From Prosopocoilus inquinatus (taxonomy: Eukaryota; Arthropoda; Insecta; Coleoptera; Lucanidae): a stretch of DNA of 64,000 bases. How positions within the stretch are numbered: position 1 is the stretch's first letter; every line of letters starts with the position of its first letter. The stretch spans positions 38,612,101 through 38,676,100 of the forward strand of contig CM069872.1 in NCBI GenBank assembly GCA_036172665.1. Direction: 5' to 3'. The notes below the pieces were generated by a model that had not been told where the DNA came from, made no database searches, and worked only from the letters and a program-made list of their open reading frames with translations. Below, in pieces: positions 12,536-63,101 of this stretch. Made by a program: the position numbers and the translations under genes.

Positions 12536-12806
12536 GACAGGCGAAAACCAGACTGAAATATTGGTACTAAATTAAATTTATTTAAGTAAGTGGTTTTTAA
12601 AACTGTGACCGAACAGAATTATAATCGGAAAAGCACTCAACGTTTCACTATCTATTGACTAATGAAGCTAACAATCGACAGTGAAATGTTGAGTGCTTTT
12701 CCAATTAGAATTCTGTTCGGTCACACTTTTAAAAACCATTTACTTAAATAAATTTTATTTAGTATCAATATTTCAGTCTGGTTTCCGCCCTGACTTTAGT
12801 TGTGCT
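12536..12806. repeat. palindrome joined to the non-LTR RT
   Basis: Arms of about 125 bp (12536-12660 and 12680-12806) are inverted copies separated by about 20 bp. The left arm has GGAAAAGCACTCAACGTTTC and the right arm has GTTGAGTGCTTTTCC. The right arm runs into the coding sequence of the RT (FQSGFRP), so the left arm carries the same RT segment inverted. Confidence 0.75.
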
Positions 12807-13990
12807 ATTGCCATTAATATTTGGCAATGTTTTAAGGTAATTGATAACAACAAAGTTATTATCTTAGTGTTATTAGGCTTTTCTAAAGCATTCGAAACTA
12901 TCAATTACAAATTACTATCATTATTTGTTTTATATTACATTGATTTTATTAATAATAATGCTATATTATTTTTTAAGAATCATTTGCATGGAAGAAGACA
13001 AAGAGTTATGCTCGACAACAATGTTTCTGAGGCGCTATCCATTCGTTCTGGTGTAGCACAAGGCAGTATTCTTGGGCCTTTACTTTTTTGTATTTATACG
13101 AGCTTTATGTTTAAAACTGTCCAGTTCTGCAAATGCCAAAGATACGTATACGCCGATGATACTCAATGGTATCACTGTTTTGATCAACCAAATATTGTTA
13201 ATGGCGTTGCAGAAGTTCATTCGGATTTACAAAAACTACAAAGGGCTGCTTCGGAACACTGTTTTCCAATCAATCCCGACAAATGCATAAATTACATTAA
13301 TATTGAAATAAATAACTCTTCATTAGAATTGGTAGACTGTGCAAAAAATCTTGGCCTTTACTGTGACCTGGATTTAAGATTCCATCTTAGTAAATTGCTT
13401 CGAAAAGCGTATGACTTAAGTTATTGTGTGGCAACAAAGATTTCTAATGGAAAATTCACACAAAACACTTTGTATTATCCCAATTTAACTATTGTGATGT
13501 AATTTATACACTCCATTCACATTAGAAAAATTCAACGAGTACAGAATTCGTGTTTACGTTTTATTTATGGACTCAAGGGCAAGGACCATATCTCACACTG
13601 TTTCGATAAAGCTCCCTGGTTAAATATGACTAAGGCTACGTTGTATAAAAGTTAAGCCAGGTTTAACTTGAAGGTTAACTTAGAATGTGAGACACAATAT
13701 GCCATACGTCATGATATGTCACAATCTAACTTAGGCTTAAATTTAATCCTGCTTTAAAACTTTTATACAACGCAGCCAAAGAGAGGTGAACTTTATTCTG
13801 CAGTATTTTTTTAATAAAATTATCTATAACAGGACACCGCAGTATCTCTACGAAAGGCTTACCAACTCCTCCTTCACACCTCCTTCCAAATATCATTTTC
13901 TTACAACTTTCCTAGGTTCTATAATAAGATTCTTAATTCATTAAAATCATGTTCGATTTCTTCTTTCAGACGACAGTTTCGTCAAGTTTA
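12771..13990 (+). pseudogene. non-LTR (Jockey/CR1-like) reverse transcriptase, broken
   Basis: The frame beginning QSGFRPDFSC shows the ordered non-LTR RT blocks. These are a SKAFETINYKLL motif (usual form DFSKAFDTINH), SGVAQGSILGPLL at about 13050-13085, and the catalytic YADD at 13149-13160. The endonuclease and the N-terminal half of the RT are missing, cut at the palindrome. The main frame stops at 13502. RT-like coding text continues in other frames (RTPQYLYERL near 13830) on both sides of a MITE inserted at 13634. This is a dead 5'-truncated copy that cannot act on its own. Confidence 0.88.
13634..13777. mobile_element. 144-bp MITE inserted in the RT relic
   Basis: The ends GGCTACGTTGTATAAAAGTT and AACTTTTATACAACGCAGCC are inverted with one mismatch. 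The second layer (AAGCCAGG / CCTGCTTTA) also pairs roughly. RT coding text lies on both sides, so insertion came after the retroelement arrived. Confidence 0.75.
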
Positions 13991-53567: not shown

Positions 53568-53912
53568 TGTGGCGAGCCGCTCAGTGCTGCGTCACGCTGA
53601 GGGCGTCAGGAGGTCGGTTCGCTGTTGTGCGTCATCGGCCATCACGCCACCGGGGCCTACACCGGGGTCACATCGAACAGACTGGAATCTTCCCGCATAG
53701 AGAGTTCCAGACGGCGGCGAATGATATAAAATCGCCCCGGGTTGACTCACCAGTCAGTCGAATTCTAACAGCGAACGTCGAAGTTAGATTTTAGTGTGTA
53801 AATAAATTGTTACAAATAAATTAGTTTTTAAGCTTTATTAAATTACGGTTAAGTTTTTATCGAGTGTTTTATTCGTTTAAATAAATAAATTTTAAACCCT
53901 AGAAACGTAACA
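53568..53912 (+). repeat. 5' LTR of the deleted element (345 bp)
   Basis: Begins TGTGGCGAGC and ends GTAACA. Contains TATAAAA at 53725-53731 and an initiator TCAGTC whose A at 53756 lies 31 bp downstream, so R would start there. AATAAA signals follow. From about CACATCGAACAGACTGG onward it resembles the LTR at 56612; the upstream U3 is largely different. Confidence 0.93.
53725..53759 (+). promoter_or_regulatory. LTR core promoter: TATA box + TCAGT initiator
   Basis: TATAAAA followed at 31-bp spacing by TCAGTC, the arthropod initiator consensus. No ATG occurs between the predicted start (53756) and the ORF start at 53936. Confidence 0.7.
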
Positions 53913-53913
53913 G

Positions 53914-53930
53914 TGGTGTCAGGTGTGGGG
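53914..53930 (+). other. primer binding site of the deleted element
   Basis: TGGTGTCAGGTGTGGGG begins one base after the LTR. TGG matches the tRNA CCA end, and the first nine bases fit a tRNA-Leu-type primer; the exact isoacceptor is not certain. Confidence 0.75.
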
Positions 53931-53935
53931 TACCT

Positions 53936-55309
53936 ATGGAACTGCATTCAGACCAAGGAAGGAACTTTGAATCGGCCTTGTTCAAGAACGTGTGTACTCT
54001 GCTCGGCGTCCGAAAAACTAGAACAACTGCACTCCACCCACAGTCGGACGGAATGGTGGAAAGGTTCAATAGAACCATCAACCGACATTTGTCCAAGGTC
54101 GTTTCCAATCAGCAGAGGGACTGGGACACGTACATCCCCCTGTTTCTAATGGCATACCGCTCATCTGTTCATGAGACAACAGGGGAGACTCCCGCGAAAG
54201 TGGTATTCGGGCGAGAGCCGAGACTGCCCTGCGACCTGAAGTTTGGTGTGAAGCCTGGCGAAGTCTCTGCCGACGAAGATTACGTGAGCAAATTACGCAG
54301 GAAAATGGATGATATCCACAACCAAGTGCGTCACAATATACAGACGGCCAGCGATCGGATGAAGGAGCACTATGACATCAACGCTCAACACGGGGGATAC
54401 CAACCTGGAGCACTGGTCTGGCTTTATAACCCCCAAAGACGTCGAGGCCTCTCCCCAAAATTACAGACCTCTTGGGAAGGTCCTTACAAGGTGATGAAAC
54501 GGATCAACGACGTCGTTTACCGCATCAGGAAGGTCCCCCATGGCAAACCCAAAGTAATCCACTTCAACCGGATAGCCCCTTACCATGGAGAAGCAGATGA
54601 AGGGACAGTACAAAGGGCGCAAGTTTCCGAAGTGAACTTCGAAACCTTCATGTCTCATCACGCTGAAGGAAGCAAGGCACGGTTTGGAGTGACCACGGAG
54701 AAGCAACAAGATCTCTTTAAAGTGCCACTGGAGTACAGTCTGGCCCACTGCGTAGCCGAAGACCTGAAAATGTCCAAAGGAATCGCTCAGGTGTTTAGGA
54801 AGAAATTTGGCCAAATCGAGGAGCTACGAAGACAGCATCCCATGGTAGGCAAGAGCTTGCAGATCATTGATTCGACGGCAGATCGGAGGCGCCACGTGCA
54901 TTATTTAGTCACTAAGAAGACATCAAGCGGTAAACCTGACTATCAAAGTATGTGGAGAGCCCTATATAGCCTGAGGAGACAGCTAATAGAGAACCATCAG
55001 ATGAAGTTGGCCATCCCCAAATTGGACTGCGGATTGGACGGACTAGACTGGAGAGTAATACGAAGCATGCTGGAAGTCATCTTCCACAGAACGGGAATTG
55101 AAGTCCTAGTCTGCAGCCATCACCCACAGGCAACAGTCAGCAACAGCAAAACCGTAGACTGCTACTTCTTCCAGACGGGAAATTGCAAGAATGGGCCAGC
55201 TTGTAGATTCCGACATCCTCCTTCAAGACTATCACCAGGAACATTTCGAGACGAAACGTTTTTAAGAAGGGGGCAGTGTGGCGAGCCGCTCAGTGCTGCG
55301 TCACGCTGA
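53936..55309 (+). CDS. short element ORF: integrase C-terminus + macrodomain + CCCH finger
   Basis: 457 codons, starting at an ATG that corresponds to Met1474 of the full polyprotein. It keeps the second catalytic Asp (D6) and the Glu (E42) of integrase but lacks the zinc domain and first Asp, so integrase activity is lost. GPY region near residues 180-184. The TARG1-like macrodomain spans about residues 255-393, with the catalytic pair K327 and D368. The CCCH finger is C409, C417, C423, H427. The frame ends with ten residues encoded by the 3' LTR. It differs from the full copy at eight residues before the LTR, including Gly to Asp at residue 364, in the catalytic loop before CGLD. This ATG is the first AUG after the predicted LTR transcription start, so the protein could be made directly from the LTR promoter. 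Whether the short ORF is expressed or merely survives by youth is unknown. Confidence 0.88.
   Translation: MELHSDQGRNFESALFKNVCTLLGVRKTRTTALHPQSDGMVERFNRTINRHLSKVVSNQQRDWDTYIPLFLMAYRSSVHETTGETPAKVVFGREPRLPCDLKFGVKPGEVSADEDYVSKLRRKMDDIHNQVRHNIQTASDRMKEHYDINAQHGGYQPGALVWLYNPQRRRGLSPKLQTSWEGPYKVMKRINDVVYRIRKVPHGKPKVIHFNRIAPYHGEADEGTVQRAQVSEVNFETFMSHHAEGSKARFGVTTEKQQDLFKVPLEYSLAHCVAEDLKMSKGIAQVFRKKFGQIEELRRQHPMVGKSLQIIDSTADRRRHVHYLVTKKTSSGKPDYQSMWRALYSLRRQLIENHQMKLAIPKLDCGLDGLDWRVIRSMLEVIFHRTGIEVLVCSHHPQATVSNSKTVDCYFFQTGNCKNGPACRFRHPPSRLSPGTFRDETFLRRGQCGEPLSAASR
55264..55276 (+). other. polypurine tract of the deleted element
   Basis: AAGAAGGGGGCAG immediately before the 3' LTR, identical to the tract at 62774. 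Confidence 0.8.
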
Positions 55310-55621
55310 GGGCGTCAGGAGGTCGGTTCGCTGTTGTGCGTCATCGGCCATCACGCCACCGGGGCCTACACCGGGGTCACATCGCACAGACTGGAATCTT
55401 CCCGCATAGAGAGTTCCAGACGGCGGCGAATGATATAAAATCGCCCCGGGTTGACTCACCAGTCAGTCGAATTCTAACAGCGAACGTCGAAGTTAGATTT
55501 TAGTGTGTAAATAAATTGTTACAAATAAATTAGTTTTTAAGCTTTATTAAATTACGGTTAAGTTTTTATCGAGTGTTTTATTCGTTTAAATAAATAAATT
55601 TTAAACCCTAGAAACGTAACA
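55277..55621 (+). repeat. 3' LTR of the deleted element (345 bp)
   Basis: Same length as the 5' LTR, with one base difference seen by eye. Ends GTAACA before the ATAT duplication. Confidence 0.93.
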
Positions 55622-56611: not shown

Positions 56612-56926
56612 TGTGGCGCACCAACCGGCTTAGCGCAAGGCGCCAAGAAGTCGGCCGCTGTTATGTGTCATCGGCCGGAGCCCACATCGAACAGACTGGA
56701 ATGTTCCAATTCGAGAGACTTCCAGACGCCAGCAAATGATATAAAATCGCCCGGAGTTGACTCACGAGTCAGTCGAATTCGAGCAGCGATAGTCGAAGTT
56801 AGATTTTAGTGTGAAAATAAATTGTTAGAAATAAATTAGTTTTTAAGCTTCATTAAATTACGGTTAAGTTTTTATCGAGTGTTTTATTCGTTTAAATAAA
56901 TAAACTCAAACCCTAGAAACGTAGCA
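56612..56926 (+). repeat. 5' LTR (315 bp)
   Basis: TGTGGCGCACC to GAAACGTAGCA. Contains TATAAAA at 56740-56746 and an initiator TCAGTC with A at 56771. Several AATAAA sites lie in R/U5 (for example near 56816 and 56897). Confidence 0.96.
56740..56774 (+). promoter_or_regulatory. LTR core promoter: TATA box + TCAGT initiator
   Basis: TATAAAA and TCAGTC are 31 bp apart, as in the short copy. No ATG lies between the predicted start and the gag-pol ATG at 57027, which sits in a favourable context (ACAATGG). Confidence 0.72.
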
Positions 56927-57026: not shown

Positions 57027-60000
57027 ATGGCTACGAGAAAAGTGTTGTTGAAAGACTTAAAAGTGGCCGAATTAAAAACCGAATTGGAAGAACGAGAATT
57101 AGAAACCTGTGGTTTGAAAGGCGCACTTCAACAGCGTCTCCGATCCGATTTGTTGACAGCTGGCGAAGATCCAGAGACCTTCCTTTTCGAAATTTCGTGT
57201 GGTCCCGCCGATTTTAATAAAATCCTGAAAGATGAACTTCGAGAACAATCCAGAAATTTAGAGCAAAAGCTTCTAGAACAATCTGGAAATTTCAAGGACG
57301 AACTTCGAGAACAATCTGGAAATTTCAAGGACGAACTTCGAGAACAATCCAGAAATTTGGACGAGAAGTTTCAAGAACAGTCTGGAAATTTACAGAAGCT
57401 TCAAGAACAATCCAGAAATTTAGAGGAGAAGCTTCTAGAACAATCTGGAAATTTCGACAAATTACAAAATAAATTGTTGGAACAATCTAGAGACTTAGAC
57501 GAGAAATTTCTAGAGCAATCCAGAAATTTCGACGAGAAACTTCTAGAACAGTCCGGAAATTTGAAGGGTGAATTTCTAGAACAGACGAAAGGACTCGAAG
57601 ATAAACTAGTGGTAAAAATATCGGAAGAAACAAGAAACCTGCAAGAAAATGTGGAAGAAATAATATTCCAGCAGGATAATAAAATCAAAAATCTGGAACA
57701 AATCATGGCGGGGTTGCGAGTGTTCGGGGATCAGCCACCAGTAGAAACACTAGAAAATAATGAAACCCGAATTGTGGAAGGACCAACAGAAAATTCGAAA
57801 TTGAAAGTAAAACCACCAACGTTCGATGGAAAGTCTTCTTGGCCCAACTACTTCAAACAGTTCGAAGCAGCAGCAAAGGCGAACAGATGGACGGCCAGCG
57901 AAAAAGCCACTTCGTTAATTGTGGCCTTGAGAGGGGACGCTATCGATGTGCTACAGACGATGCCGCCAGAGGAACAAGAAGACTTCGACAAGCTGGTGAA
58001 TAGGATGGAAATGCGTTACGGACAGGCCCATCTGACCGAGGTATACCATGCGCAGTTGAGGAATCGCTGTCAGAAATCCGGAGAAACTCTTCAGGAATTC
58101 GAAGCAGACGTTGCGCGTCTGGCCCAGTTGGCATATCCCACAGCTCCTGTTGAATTCCTCAAATGTTTGACGGTGCAGACCTTCATAGATGGAATCCGTG
58201 ACCCAGACAACCAGCAGGCATTGAGAATGACCCATCCGAAGACGTCCAAGAACGCATTAGCTTATGCCTTGGAATTTGAAGCAGCGAGACGAGTCTCAAG
58301 AGGGCATGTCAAGGTGCGAGCGGCTATGGACTTCCAAGAGGAAGAAGAGGAAGAATCCGCTAACGCCAAGGTGGGATCTACTATAAAGGAGCGAGCCAGG
58401 GAGTATGCCACCGCCGAGGATGTTCGCCGCATTGTGGAACAGGTCTTCAAGCAGAAGAGGCCGCTGGTGTGGCCAGGAGGAAGGACATGTTCGCAGGCGA
58501 TGTCCAAAGCCCAGACAGGATCCAAGGAAGCCACAGTTAAACTAAGCCGGGTCGGTGCAGAGGGGCAAACGTCGACCCGTATTCAAAGGCCCCCAAAGAC
58601 GAAAGCCAACCAAGTAATTTTCCTACGGCAGTTAACCAGCAGTGTCTTCGTGGATGTCACCATTGATAACATTCCTCACACCATGTTGTTGGATACGGGT
58701 GCGACGAAGACCATCCTAAGACCCGACGTCATTAAGTCATCTGGACGCACCGAGCCGACCAAGTGGAGACTGAAAACTGCAACTGGAACATCAGCAACTG
58801 TCCACGGTGAAGTAGAGGTTATCATCACCATTGGTTCAACTCCAATAAAACACCGTGCACTGGTGGCAGATATAGAGGACGAGGCAATTTTGGGCATGGA
58901 CGTCATGTGTGCCCACGGGTTCCAATTGGACTTAAAGCGTGGCGTGATGGCGGTCAATAATGAGGAGTTGGTTCTACATCAACGAGGGGACGTGGCCGCT
59001 CGAGTAGTCCTCGCTGAAGACGTTGTATTACCCAGCAGGACTGAGGTTATCGTCGACGCAAAACTGGACGGTGTTTTTCAAGATGGGCAAGTCATTATGG
59101 TTGAACCTAATACTGATGATCAAAGGATTGGAAGAGGAGTCCTCGTTGGGAAAATGTTGTTGACGGCGAAGAAGGAAGTACCTGTCCGCCTGATGAACGT
59201 CAATTGTTTCTCTGTCAATATCAAGAAAAGAACAATCTTGGGAAGCTGCACCATGGTGTCCTCCATCTCCCGGCAACTTGAAACAAACGTGCCAGAAGCG
59301 AAAGTCCCAAAGAAATTATGGGAAATGGTTATGTCAACAGCCCAGGAATTGACTCCAGACCAGAAGACAAAAGCAAAGAATCTGATCGGCCGCTATCAAG
59401 ATGTATTTGAGGTAGAAAATGGATCCAAGGGAAGAACTGATGTCGTGAAACACAAAATAGAGACTGGAGAAGAAAGACCTATCCGTCAAGCTCCAAGGCG
59501 ATTACCGTTGGCAAAGCGTGAGGAAGCGGAACGCATTATTCGCGAGATGGAAAAGGATAATGTGATAGAACCATCAAGCAGCCCGTGGGCGTCACCAGTA
59601 GTGCTTGTGAAGAAGAAGGATGGGTCCACCAGATTCTGTGTAGACTACCGGTTACTCAACAATGTCACCAAGAAGGACAGCTATCCCTTGCCCCGGATTG
59701 ATGATACCCTGGACACCCTGGCCGGCTCAAAGATCTTCTCAACTTTGGACTTAAAGAGTGGATATTGGCAAGTGGAGCTGGCGCCCGAAGATCGAGAAAA
59801 GACGGCGTTTTCCATTGGTATGGGTCTGTGGCAGTTCACAGTGATGCCATTCGGGTTATGTAATGCCCCAGCGACATTTGAGAGGTTAATGGAGACGGTT
59901 CTGAAAGGTCTATCCTGGACAACGTGCATGGTGTACCTTGACGACATAATTGTCGTGGGAAAGACGTTCGACGACCACCTAAGGAACCTGGAAGGAGTGT

Positions 60001-62984
60001 TCCAGCGGCTTCGCGGAGCTGGACTAAAGCTTAGCCTCAAGAAGTGTCACCTGTTCCAGAAGGAAGTGAATTACCTGGGGCACATTGTTAATGGAAACGG
60101 AATCGCCGTGGACCCTGTGAAGATTCAGGTGGTGAAAGACTGGCCAACTCCCAGAAATAAACACCAAATAAGGAGTTTCCTTGGCCTGTGCACTTACTAT
60201 CGGCGCTACGTTCCTGGATTCGCAGACATTGCTAAGCCGTTGACAAAACTCACTGAAGAAGGTCGTCCATTTGAATGGGACCAACAGTGTCAAATTGGCT
60301 TTGAACAACTAAAGCAGTACTTGGTTAGTGCTCCTATTCTGAGTTATCCTCTCCCGAAAGGCAAGTTCGTCGTGGACACAGATGCTAGCAACGTTGGGAT
60401 TGGTGGCGTACTCTCCCAGATACAAGAGGGGCAAGAGAAGGTGATCGGCTACTTCAGTAAAGTCCTATCAAAGCCGGAACGAAACTATTGCGTCACAAGA
60501 AGGGAATTGCTAGCCGTCGTAAAAACGATAGAACACTTCTACAAGTACTTGTATGGTAGACGCTTCCTGCTGAGGACCGACCACGCCGCTCTAAAATGGC
60601 TTCTCCGTTTCAAGAACCCAGAAGGGCAAGTTGCACGATGGATCGAACGACTTCAGGAGTACGATTTTGAAATTCAGCATCGGGCAGGAACTAGCCATCG
60701 AAATGCCGATGCTCTGTCGAGAAGACCCTGTGCCGAAGACTGTAAGCACTGTAGTCGTTTGGACGAGAAAATAGCCACGACTGCGAGGACAGCCATTGTT
60801 GATGACAAATGGCAAGGCGAAGAACTGCGAAGAGACCAGGAGAACGACCCGGATTTGAAATTAGTGCTAGAATGGAAAAGCAGGGACGCGAGGCCTACCT
60901 GGGAAGAGGTAGCACCATGTGCACCGTCCGTAAAATCATACTGGGCGCAGTGGGACTCCATAGTGTTGGATCGTGGTCTTCTGAGACGAAGCATAGAGAA
61001 TCAGGAAGGCATGGAACAGAAGACACAGTTACTGATCCCCAAGAATAGGGTGCCAGAAGTTCTGAGGGAACTTCACGATGGAACTTCCGGAGGGCATCTG
61101 GGAGTTAAGAAGACTATGGAGAAGGTGCGCGAAAGATTTTACTGGGTGAACTGCAAGGAAGACGTGAAGGATTGGTGCAGAAAGTGTGCAGTCTGCGCAG
61201 CCAGTAACGGCCCCCACAGGCGGGGTAAGGCTCCCATGAGACAGTACAACGTTGGAAGTCCTTTTGAGAGAGTTGCCATCGATGTAGCCGGCCCGTTTCC
61301 AGAAACGAATGGTGGAAACAAGTACATCGTCGTGGTAATGGACTACTTTAGTAAGTGGGTTGAAGCTTACGCCCTACCTAACCAAGAGGCAGTCACTATT
61401 GCGGAAGTCCTTGTCAGGGAATGGATCAGTCGGTATGGTGCACCTATGGAACTGCATTCAGACCAAGGAAGGAACTTTGAATCGGCCTTGTTCAAGAACG
61501 TGTGTACTCTGCTCGGCGTACGAAAAACTAGAACAACTGCACTCCACCCACAGTCGGACGGAATGGTGGAAAGGTTCAATAGAACCATCAACCGACATTT
61601 GTCCAAGGTCGTTTCCAATCATCAGAGGGACTGGGACACGTACATCCCCCTGTTTCTAATGGCATACCGCTCATCTGTTCATGAGACAACAGGGGAGACT
61701 CCCGCGAAAGTGGTATTCGGGCGAGAGCCGAGACTGCCCTGCGACCTGAAGTTTGGTGTGAAGCCTGGCGAAGTCTCTGCCGACGAAGATTACGTGAGCA
61801 AATTACGCAGGAAAATGGATGATATCCACAACCAAGTGCGTCACAATATACAGACGGCCAGCGATCGGATGAAGGAGCACTATGACATCAACGCTCAACA
61901 CGGGGGATACCAACCTGGAGCACTGGTCTGGCTTTATAACCCCCAAAGACGTCGAGGCCTGTCCCCAAAATTACAGACCTCTTGGGAAGGTCCTTACAAA
62001 GTGATGAAACGGATCAACGACGTCGTTTACCGCATCAAGAAGGTCCCCCATGGCAAACCCAAAGTAATCCACTTCAACCGGATAGCCCCTTACCATGGAG
62101 AAGCAGATGAAGGGACAGTACAAAGGGCGCAAGTTTCCGAAGTGAACTTCGAAACCTTCATGTCTCATCACGCCGAAGGAAGCAAGGCACGGTTTGGAGT
62201 GACCATGGAGAAGCAACAAGATCTCTTTAAAGTGCCACTGGAGTACAGTCTGGCCCACTGCGTAGCAGAAGACCTGAAAATGTCCAAAGGAATCGCTCAG
62301 GTGTTTAGGAAGAAATTTGGCCAAATCGAGGAGCTACGAAGACAGCATCCCGTGGTAGGCAAGAGCTTGCAGATCATTGATTCGACGGCAGATCGGAGGC
62401 GCCACGTGCATTATTTAATCACTAAGAAGACATCAAGCGGTAAACCTGACTATCAAAGTATGTGGAGAGCCCTATATAGCCTGAGGAGACAGCTAATAGA
62501 GACCCATCAGATGAAGTTAGCCATCCCCAAATTGGGCTGCGGATTAGACGGACTAGACTGGAGAGTAATTCGAAGCATGCTGGAAGTCATCTTCCACAGA
62601 ACGGGAATTGAAGTCCTAGTCTGCAGCCACCACCCACAGGCAACAGTCAGCAACAGCAAAACCGTAGACTGTTACTTCTTCCAGACGGGAAGTTGCAAGA
62701 ATGGGCCAGCATGTAGATTCCGACACCCTCCTTCAAGGCTATCACCAGGAACATTTCGAGACGAAACGTTTTTAAGAAGGGGGCAGTGTGGCGCACCAAC
62801 CGGCTTAGCGCAAGGCGCCAAGAAGTCGGCCGCTGTTATGTGTCATCGGCCGGAGCCCACATCGAACAGACTGGAATGTTCCAATTCGAGAGACTTCCAG
62901 ACGCCAGCAAATGATATAAAATCGCCCGGAGTTGACTCACGAGTCAGTCGAATTCGAGCAGCGATAGTCGAAGTTAGATTTTAG
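57027..62984 (+). CDS. gag-pol: Gag-Pol polyprotein with SAP-like region, macrodomain and CCCH finger
   Basis: 1985 codons, no frameshift or stop between Gag and Pol. Residues 8-43: SAP-like helix pair. About 69-195: eleven-residue coiled-coil repeats (LLEQSGNF type). About 259-423: retrotransposon capsid; an acidic run follows near 438, and there is no CCHC knuckle. Protease DTG at 556-558. RT from about 820, catalytic D908, D972, D973 (YLDD 970-973). RNase H D1119, E1160, D1185, D1228. Integrase zinc ligands H1350, H1357, C1387, C1390; catalytic D1419, D1479, E1515 (35-residue spacing); GPY 1655-1657. About 1728-1866: macrodomain closest to TARG1/OARD1, with K1800 (LITKK) and D1841 (GCGLD) 41 residues apart, as in the human enzyme. 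CCCH finger C1882, C1890, C1896, H1900. The last 65 residues are encoded by the 3' LTR. Gag forms the particle and Pol copies and integrates the element; the macrodomain would bind or remove ADP-ribose (inferred). Confidence 0.95.
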   Translation: MATRKVLLKDLKVAELKTELEERELETCGLKGALQQRLRSDLLTAGEDPETFLFEISCGPADFNKILKDELREQSRNLEQKLLEQSGNFKDELREQSGNFKDELREQSRNLDEKFQEQSGNLQKLQEQSRNLEEKLLEQSGNFDKLQNKLLEQSRDLDEKFLEQSRNFDEKLLEQSGNLKGEFLEQTKGLEDKLVVKISEETRNLQENVEEIIFQQDNKIKNLEQIMAGLRVFGDQPPVETLENNETRIVEGPTENSKLKVKPPTFDGKSSWPNYFKQFEAAAKANRWTASEKATSLIVALRGDAIDVLQTMPPEEQEDFDKLVNRMEMRYGQAHLTEVYHAQLRNRCQKSGETLQEFEADVARLAQLAYPTAPVEFLKCLTVQTFIDGIRDPDNQQALRMTHPKTSKNALAYALEFEAARRVSRGHVKVRAAMDFQEEEEEESANAKVGSTIKERAREYATAEDVRRIVEQVFKQKRPLVWPGGRTCSQAMSKAQTGSKEATVKLSRVGAEGQTSTRIQRPPKTKANQVIFLRQLTSSVFVDVTIDNIPHTMLLDTGATKTILRPDVIKSSGRTEPTKWRLKTATGTSATVHGEVEVIITIGSTPIKHRALVADIEDEAILGMDVMCAHGFQLDLKRGVMAVNNEELVLHQRGDVAARVVLAEDVVLPSRTEVIVDAKLDGVFQDGQVIMVEPNTDDQRIGRGVLVGKMLLTAKKEVPVRLMNVNCFSVNIKKRTILGSCTMVSSISRQLETNVPEAKVPKKLWEMVMSTAQELTPDQKTKAKNLIGRYQDVFEVENGSKGRTDVVKHKIETGEERPIRQAPRRLPLAKREEAERIIREMEKDNVIEPSSSPWASPVVLVKKKDGSTRFCVDYRLLNNVTKKDSYPLPRIDDTLDTLAGSKIFSTLDLKSGYWQVELAPEDREKTAFSIGMGLWQFTVMPFGLCNAPATFERLMETVLKGLSWTTCMVYLDDIIVVGKTFDDHLRNLEGVFQRLRGAGLKLSLKKCHLFQKEVNYLGHIVNGNGIAVDPVKIQVVKDWPTPRNKHQIRSFLGLCTYYRRYVPGFADIAKPLTKLTEEGRPFEWDQQCQIGFEQLKQYLVSAPILSYPLPKGKFVVDTDASNVGIGGVLSQIQEGQEKVIGYFSKVLSKPERNYCVTRRELLAVVKTIEHFYKYLYGRRFLLRTDHAALKWLLRFKNPEGQVARWIERLQEYDFEIQHRAGTSHRNADALSRRPCAEDCKHCSRLDEKIATTARTAIVDDKWQGEELRRDQENDPDLKLVLEWKSRDARPTWEEVAPCAPSVKSYWAQWDSIVLDRGLLRRSIENQEGMEQKTQLLIPKNRVPEVLRELHDGTSGGHLGVKKTMEKVRERFYWVNCKEDVKDWCRKCAVCAASNGPHRRGKAPMRQYNVGSPFERVAIDVAGPFPETNGGNKYIVVVMDYFSKWVEAYALPNQEAVTIAEVLVREWISRYGAPMELHSDQGRNFESALFKNVCTLLGVRKTRTTALHPQSDGMVERFNRTINRHLSKVVSNHQRDWDTYIPLFLMAYRSSVHETTGETPAKVVFGREPRLPCDLKFGVKPGEVSADEDYVSKLRRKMDDIHNQVRHNIQTASDRMKEHYDINAQHGGYQPGALVWLYNPQRRRGLSPKLQTSWEGPYKVMKRINDVVYRIKKVPHGKPKVIHFNRIAPYHGEADEGTVQRAQVSEVNFETFMSHHAEGSKARFGVTMEKQQDLFKVPLEYSLAHCVAEDLKMSKGIAQVFRKKFGQIEELRRQHPVVGKSLQIIDSTADRRRHVHYLITKKTSSGKPDYQSMWRALYSLRRQLIETHQMKLAIPKLGCGLDGLDWRVIRSMLEVIFHRTGIEVLVCSHHPQATVSNSKTVDCYFFQTGSCKNGPACRFRHPPSRLSPGTFRDETFLRRGQCGAPTGLAQGAKKSAAVMCHRPEPTSNRLECSNSRDFQTPANDIKSPGVDSRVSRIRAAIVEVRF
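57231..57605 (+). repeat. 33-bp tandem coding repeats in gag (11-residue coiled coil)
   Basis: About eleven units of roughly 33 bp (GAACAATCCAGAAATTT or GAACAATCTGGAAATTT core) encode xLxEQSxNxxx hendecads; two units are slightly off length. Hendecad periodicity predicts a straight or right-handed coiled coil, probably a multimerisation stalk. Confidence 0.88.
62208..62625 (+). other. TARG1/OARD1-like macrodomain segment of the polyprotein
   Basis: Order of motifs: DLF (D1732), SLAHC-x2-ED, MSKGIA, FRKKFG, HYLITKK (K1800), GKPDY, IPKLGCGLDGLDW (D1841), and a closing EVLVCSHH strand. In human TARG1, Lys84 attacks ADP-ribose and Asp125 assists in releasing it; both are conserved here at the same spacing. 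Family knowledge: TARG1 removes ADP-ribose from Asp/Glu side chains. Activity in this element is an inference. Confidence 0.9.
62670..62726 (+). other. CCCH zinc finger segment
   Basis: C-x7-C-x5-C-x3-H (CYFFQTGSC...CRFRH), residues 1882-1900. This spacing fits RNA-binding CCCH fingers. It may replace the missing Gag CCHC knuckle or guide the macrodomain to RNA. Confidence 0.88.
62774..62786 (+). other. polypurine tract
   Basis: AAGAAGGGGGCAG immediately before the 3' LTR; it primes plus-strand synthesis in this class of element. Confidence 0.85.
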
Positions 62985-63101
62985 TGTGAAAATAAATTGT
63001 TAGAAATAAATTAGTTTTTAAGCTTCATTAAATTACGGTTAAGTTTTTATCGAGTGTTTTATTCGTTTAAATAAATAAACTCAAACCCTAGAAACGTAGC
63101 A
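62787..63101 (+). repeat. 3' LTR (315 bp)
   Basis: Identical by eye to the 5' LTR. The gag-pol frame runs 198 nt into it and ends at TAG 62982-62984. Confidence 0.96.

Follow-up and report, generated by a model that had tools for sequence, protein, structure and literature searches.

A TARG1-type macrodomain behind the integrase of a young Ty3/Gypsy retrotransposon in a lucanid beetle, and its recurrence in insect Gypsy elements

Why would a retrotransposon carry, within its pol gene, a domain of a class that removes ADP-ribose? This question is raised by a 64,000-nucleotide stretch of the genome of Prosopocoilus inquinatus (Coleoptera; Lucanidae), positions 38,612,101 to 38,676,100 of the forward strand of contig CM069872.1 in assembly GCA_036172665.1. 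We call this whole stretch the window and number positions within it. In it lies a very young Ty3/Gypsy retrotransposon. Behind the integrase, its pol has acquired a TARG1/OARD1-type macrodomain (62217..62621, +) and a CCCH zinc finger (62658..62732, +; Pfam PF00642, E 2.5e-6, above the Pfam cut-off). The macrodomain was recognized by sequence match, catalytic residues and structure comparison.

A first-pass annotation of the bare sequence had placed a TARG1/OARD1-class macrodomain at 62208..62625. Our match covers nearly the same interval, with TARG1 as the best solved structure (E 1.1e-28). That annotation had also named K1800 and D1841 as a catalytic pair 41 residues apart, and the codons, at 62424-62426 and 62547-62549, have exactly this spacing. 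The two residues are the equivalents of TARG1 Lys84 and Asp125, and their columns are invariant across an alignment of 14 hand-chosen rows. A structure check placed the fold nearer to TARG1 than to the other macrodomains compared, and those of viruses match it with a lower Z score. The general Pfam Macro model scored 17.1 bits against a cut-off of 22. Thus, Pfam annotation would miss this domain because the model stays below threshold, whereas comparison with TARG1 and structure recover it. Assignment to the DarG antitoxin equivalog was rejected (NCBIfam score 41.9 bits, cut-off 250). These results support the interpretation that a domain of the ADP-ribosyl hydrolase class is fused behind a Gypsy integrase, its activity being predicted from sequence.

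The element is coded by a single uninterrupted gag-pol reading frame (57027..62984, +; 1985 amino acids) that ends inside the 3' long terminal repeat (LTR). The 5' LTR (56612..56926, +; 315 bp, TG...CA) has ATAT just upstream, the 3' LTR (62787..63101, +) has ATAT just downstream, and the two do not differ at any of 315 bp. Between them, Pfam found protease, reverse transcriptase (RT), RNase H and integrase in this order in one frame, the order that defines Ty3/Gypsy. The matches, all on the plus strand, are an aspartic protease (58650..58907; PF13975, E 2.1e-10), RT (59709..60089; PF00078, E 5.6e-31; the matched part only, as the domain starts earlier), RNase H (60354..60662; PF17917, E 5.6e-34), integrase H2C2 finger and core (61035..61541; PF17921, E 1.1e-20 and PF00665, E 7.1e-13) and a p58/GPY-type integrase C-terminal module (61989..62090; PF22938, E 1e-11). 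The pol end had been described as neither chromodomain nor env, and this holds: a Pfam search of pol pieces listed no chromodomain with an E value of 1 or below, and an env frame of the errantivirus type was rejected since the pol frame continues through macrodomain and CCCH finger into the 3' LTR. The N-terminus of Gag matches a SAP domain (57048..57149, +; PF02037, E 2.3e-6), and a Pfam search of two gag/protease pieces gave no CCHC knuckle. Direct repeats in gag (57228-57595), mostly spaced by 33 nucleotides, encode an EQSxNF-like motif, perhaps a coiled coil.

Is the fusion an accident of one copy? In the 650 Mb assembly, the piece coding for macrodomain and CCCH finger found 1454 candidates, and all of the best 150 that were scored, the window's own included, are 96-99% identical to it; 148 have no internal stop. 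As the scored copies are the best candidates, this count is a lower bound and is biased to intact copies. Both catalytic residues are kept in 30/30 sequences (the window element and 29 copies from the scored list). In these 30, the ratio of nonsynonymous to synonymous polymorphism (pN/pS) of the macrodomain piece was 0.11 for changes seen once (13 synonymous, 5 nonsynonymous) and 0.28 for shared changes (6 and 6), values that lean low because likeness to the macrodomain query decided which copies were chosen. The integrase piece gave 0.34 (33 synonymous, 39 nonsynonymous) and 0.13 (9 and 4), respectively. In nine sister copies (L002-L010), the LTRs are 87-93% like that of the window element (98% in L007) and the macrodomain-CCCH DNA is about 99% identical despite this divergence, which suggests LTR exchange or uneven constraint.

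The host's own OARD1 gene lies at a separate locus (L076, C5:3752700-3753236) and shares 61% identity with protein P0051 of Aromia. It encodes tandem macrodomains with a Ser/Glu-rich linker between them and clusters (support 85/99) with the OARD1 proteins found in Aromia, Hypothenemus, Henosepilachna and Rhamnusium, all beetles, a placement that together with the element relatives points to a beetle host. Its second macrodomain is interrupted by a 57-nucleotide GT...AG intron, whereas the element copies are intronless there, as expected of a captured complementary DNA (cDNA). The same genome has about four loci with PARP-type catalytic domains (5 matches).

Relatives of the fusion occur in other insects. 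A profile search found 630 proteins, of which 120 were listed, and an integrase-macrodomain query found 159, again with 120 listed. Among the 224 proteins retrieved, 126 have homology to the integrase C-terminus (phmmer E up to 1e-5). Lysine and aspartate are both kept in 119 of these 126; four carry catalytic changes, and in three (P0208, P0209, P0214) the stretch is missing. The CCCH motif was found by regular expression in 104/126. By name, most integrase-macrodomain relatives come from Aromia moschata, and integrase and macrodomain also share one protein in Exocentrus, Molorchus, Callosobruchus, Gonioctena, Harmonia and Diabrotica. In Pyrocoelia, protein P0009, which lies outside the 126, has an integrase-end motif only, by regular expression. 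The families that we looked up are Cerambycidae (Aromia), Coccinellidae (Harmonia), Chrysomelidae (Callosobruchus) and Lampyridae (Pyrocoelia). Viral contigs were rejected as a source of these relatives: the macrodomains at 10 IMG/VR loci (L011-L020) are 31-39% identical to that of the element, on contigs 19-394 kb long.

The window family is also not the only one of its kind in this genome. We hand-picked 20 loci, differing in score and frame, among the matches listed for a cellular-type query, and grouped them by likeness and flanks into classes A (1 locus, the window family), B1 (5), B2 (5), C (4), D (4) and E (1); two B2 loci additionally contain a class A piece. Of the 19 non-A loci, 18 have both lysine and aspartate, the pair of L027 spanning a broken frame. 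Pfam was run on nine of the 20. Protease, macrodomain and RT matches share a frame in L034, L039, L041 and L042; L031 and L035 have protease and macrodomain, L036 has integrase and macrodomain, L037 has macrodomain and RT, and L026 has the macrodomain only, plus a weak unrelated match. Pfam cut-offs are not reached by the Macro matches of L034, L037 and L041, nor by the RT match of L039. An RT match lay in the neighbouring stretch in 9/10 cases (L071 was the miss). RT identity to the window RT is 60% for class E and 45-49% for the other classes. For one macrodomain each of B, C, D and E, the first PDB match was TARG1 (E 6.2e-36 to 3.1e-42). The macrodomain lies at the integrase end in A and E, and between protease and RT in B and C+D. 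Thus, this enzyme class occupies two pol positions across several lineages of one genome.

How often was the domain taken up? A tree of RTs, whose rows were our own lineages and one Callosobruchus protein, gave firm groups B (support 100/100) and C+D (100/99), and a weak A+E (66/51). Macrodomain trees from two data sets give matching groups, with support of 97/87 and 100/99 for A, of 99/93 and 100/95 for B, and of 99/94 and 94/83 for C+D. Beetles of several families and the leafhopper Macrosteles are represented in the class A clade. In the 75-row tree, forcing all element domains together costs 28.65 log units (approximately unbiased (AU) test, p 0.046). In a revised row set, with two host rows added and P0219, P0047, P0071, P0118 and P0039 dropped by our own judgement, the same constraint has AU p 0.185. 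Neither A+E nor C/D+E as a clade is rejected (AU p 0.198 and 0.249). In these trees the labels 'cell' and 'TE' were assigned by us; the predicted protein of several 'TE' rows has no integrase, and no source is named for several 'cell' rows. A weak branch (49/60) of the best 75-row tree separates A and B from the remaining rows, and in the revised tree the two join with P0060 and P0099 (86/94), so the macrodomains of A and B may share an origin, as far as sequence trees indicate. We regard it as possible, although doubtful, that TARG1-type hydrolases were taken up independently and repeatedly at two places in pol, as a counter-defence against an undescribed insect ADP-ribosylation of retroelement nucleic acids or nucleoprotein.

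Selection has acted on the domain in the sister lineages. Within B2, C and D, eleven comparisons between related families at dS 0.4-1.6 gave ratios of nonsynonymous to synonymous divergence (dN/dS) of 0.15-0.23, although the pairs share near-identical members and amount to fewer than eleven independent tests. Among near-identical copies the ratio is scattered, from 0.13 to 1.22; comparisons at dS above 2 were excluded. The ratios between families show that the macrodomain is kept by selection in B2, C and D.

Based on these data, we lean towards a model in which the domain is an active hydrolase that strips host-added ADP-ribose from the ends or the complex of the element and so counters host ADP-ribosyltransferases. 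Linear cDNA with free ends is an obligate intermediate of LTR retrotransposons. We propose that the macrodomain is enzymatically active and would travel with integrase, or in other lineages with protease and RT, to the complex in which reverse transcription and integration take place. Its most likely task would be to remove ADP-ribose from the cDNA or RNA ends of the element and from Glu/Asp of end-bound proteins. The CCCH finger most likely helps to anchor the module to RNA or single-stranded nucleic acid. With ends and complex kept clean, host ADP-ribosyltransferases would be unable to block either. For TARG1, mutants of the catalytic pair (K84A, D125A) are described in PMC8501950 and PMC5725667. 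The substrates given there are DNA-end phosphates ADP-ribosylated by PARP1 or PARP3, as well as thymidine and Glu/Asp, with RNA ends stated too. The presence of such domains in several lineages of one genome suggests that host ADP-ribose marking may be an obstacle for these elements.

Several observations weigh against this model. The TARG1 loop MGAGIA reads MSKGIA in the window domain. L038 has asparagine in place of the catalytic aspartate, and among the 126 relatives the catalytic pair is R/E in P0042 and R/D in P0219, with the Asp loop deleted in P0012 and P0047 (P0042 and P0047 are from Diabrotica). For some elements, binding alone may therefore be enough. Lineages differ in where pol carries the domain, which disfavours a role tied to integrase alone. 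Finally, the between-family dN/dS covers B2, C and D; for class A between species, the corresponding evidence is conservation of the lysine and the aspartate. The four proteins P0042, P0047, P0012 and P0219, which keep the macrodomain despite changed residues, are natural test cases of binding without catalysis.

Could the domain read ADP-ribose rather than erase it? Chromoviruses carry a chromodomain at the integrase C-terminus, the place that the macrodomain occupies in classes A and E. It could tether integrase or particle to ADP-ribosylated chromatin, such as PARP-marked breaks or open chromatin, and steer integration as chromodomains do, and the lineages that retain the fold with altered catalytic residues are consistent with this. 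However, the catalytic pair is kept in nearly all integrase-bearing relatives and non-A loci, and in B and D the domain sits between protease and RT, an odd place for integration targeting. We consider a reader unlikely. An eraser directed at proteins seems improbable to a like degree. It would reverse Glu/Asp mono-ADP-ribosylation placed by PARPs on host-response proteins or on Gag/Pol, in the manner of alphavirus and coronavirus macrodomains, which have an anti-PARP role; their fold is shared here, though at lower Z, and TARG1 is reported to cleave Glu/Asp-linked ADP-ribose (PMC8501950). That a host OARD1 cDNA was caught by chance and rides along without function would fit the missing intron, but is very improbable given the low dN/dS found on comparing diverged families within B2, C and D, the spread of class A over several beetle families and a leafhopper, and recurrence at two pol positions.

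If an ADP-ribose eraser is indeed under selection in pol of several insect lineages, it can be tested whether ADP-ribosylation of cDNA, RNA or integrase limits retrotransposition, as enzymes retained by mobile elements reveal which host modification harms them. It would also supply a concrete biological setting for ADP-ribosylation of DNA and RNA ends, the cellular role of which is called unclear in PMC8501950. Our data hold a warning for annotation too: Macrosteles P0013, named 'OARD1-like', has a class A domain and clusters with element-encoded domains in both trees. By eye, the N-termini of P0013 and P0014 of Macrosteles quadrilineatus, both annotated as ADP-ribose glycohydrolase OARD1-like, resemble the integrase-macrodomain linker.

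About 1 kb upstream of the full-length element, the window contains a short, internally deleted one (53568..55621, +; 2054 bp) with its own LTRs and ATAT at both flanks. Its LTRs differ at 1 position in 345 and are 61-67% like those of the full-length element (ungapped comparison). Its interior is of the same family, with protein 97% identical over the aligned part: a 457-amino-acid open frame (53936..55309, +) encodes the C-terminal half of integrase, the macrodomain, with the catalytic loop DCGLD where the full-length element has GCGLD, and the CCCH finger. The region just past the primer-binding site is joined to mid-integrase. Splicing was rejected as the origin, the breakpoints having no GT...AG by eye, and the exact 20-base string spanning the junction was found in 0/32 other loci, of which L037 and L038 stop short of that place. 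Another Gypsy pol with RNase H and integrase (3-1820, +) is truncated where the window begins. Its integrase and that of the macrodomain element share 30% identity, and inspection by eye, with no profile search run there, saw no macrodomain in its 605-amino-acid frame. A 269-amino-acid frame at 12693-13502 (+) appears by eye to be a non-LTR RT fragment with a YADD motif.

How does this arrangement compare with known systems? Cellular TARG1/OARD1 (C6orf130), the terminal ADP-ribose protein glycohydrolase, has its own gene in this host, with tandem macrodomains, whereas the element domain is uninterrupted and lies inside retrotransposon pol, where integrase and a CCCH finger are its fusion partners. 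The bacterial antitoxin macrodomain DarG is 21-23% identical to it. Chromoviruses likewise extend Gypsy pol by a domain behind integrase, but the window element has no chromodomain match and its added domain belongs to an enzyme class. Among the top entries of long result lists from the open-access literature, a search that left repeat databases aside, no Gypsy element with a macrodomain was found, and passages of PMC2774666 contain nothing on macrodomains. The closest analogue in kind is the AlkB domain, active in vitro, of orchid Ty3/Gypsy elements (PMC9289625). It too is a captured modification-erasing enzyme, but it is a separate frame in a plant host and targets N6-methyladenosine in RNA, whereas the predicted target here is ADP-ribose. 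Retroelements with a macrodomain are known from ray-finned fish, where epsilon-like endogenous retroviruses have macro-domain reading frames (Basta 2009, cited in PMC4977317). There, as far as this citing review alone tells, the macrodomain is an additional frame in vertebrate endogenous retroviruses, whereas here a TARG1-type domain is fused inside pol of insect Gypsy elements, with a CCCH finger. Thus, retroelement macrodomains were known before, and the TARG1-type macrodomain in insect Gypsy pol adds to them with good evidence of recurrence.

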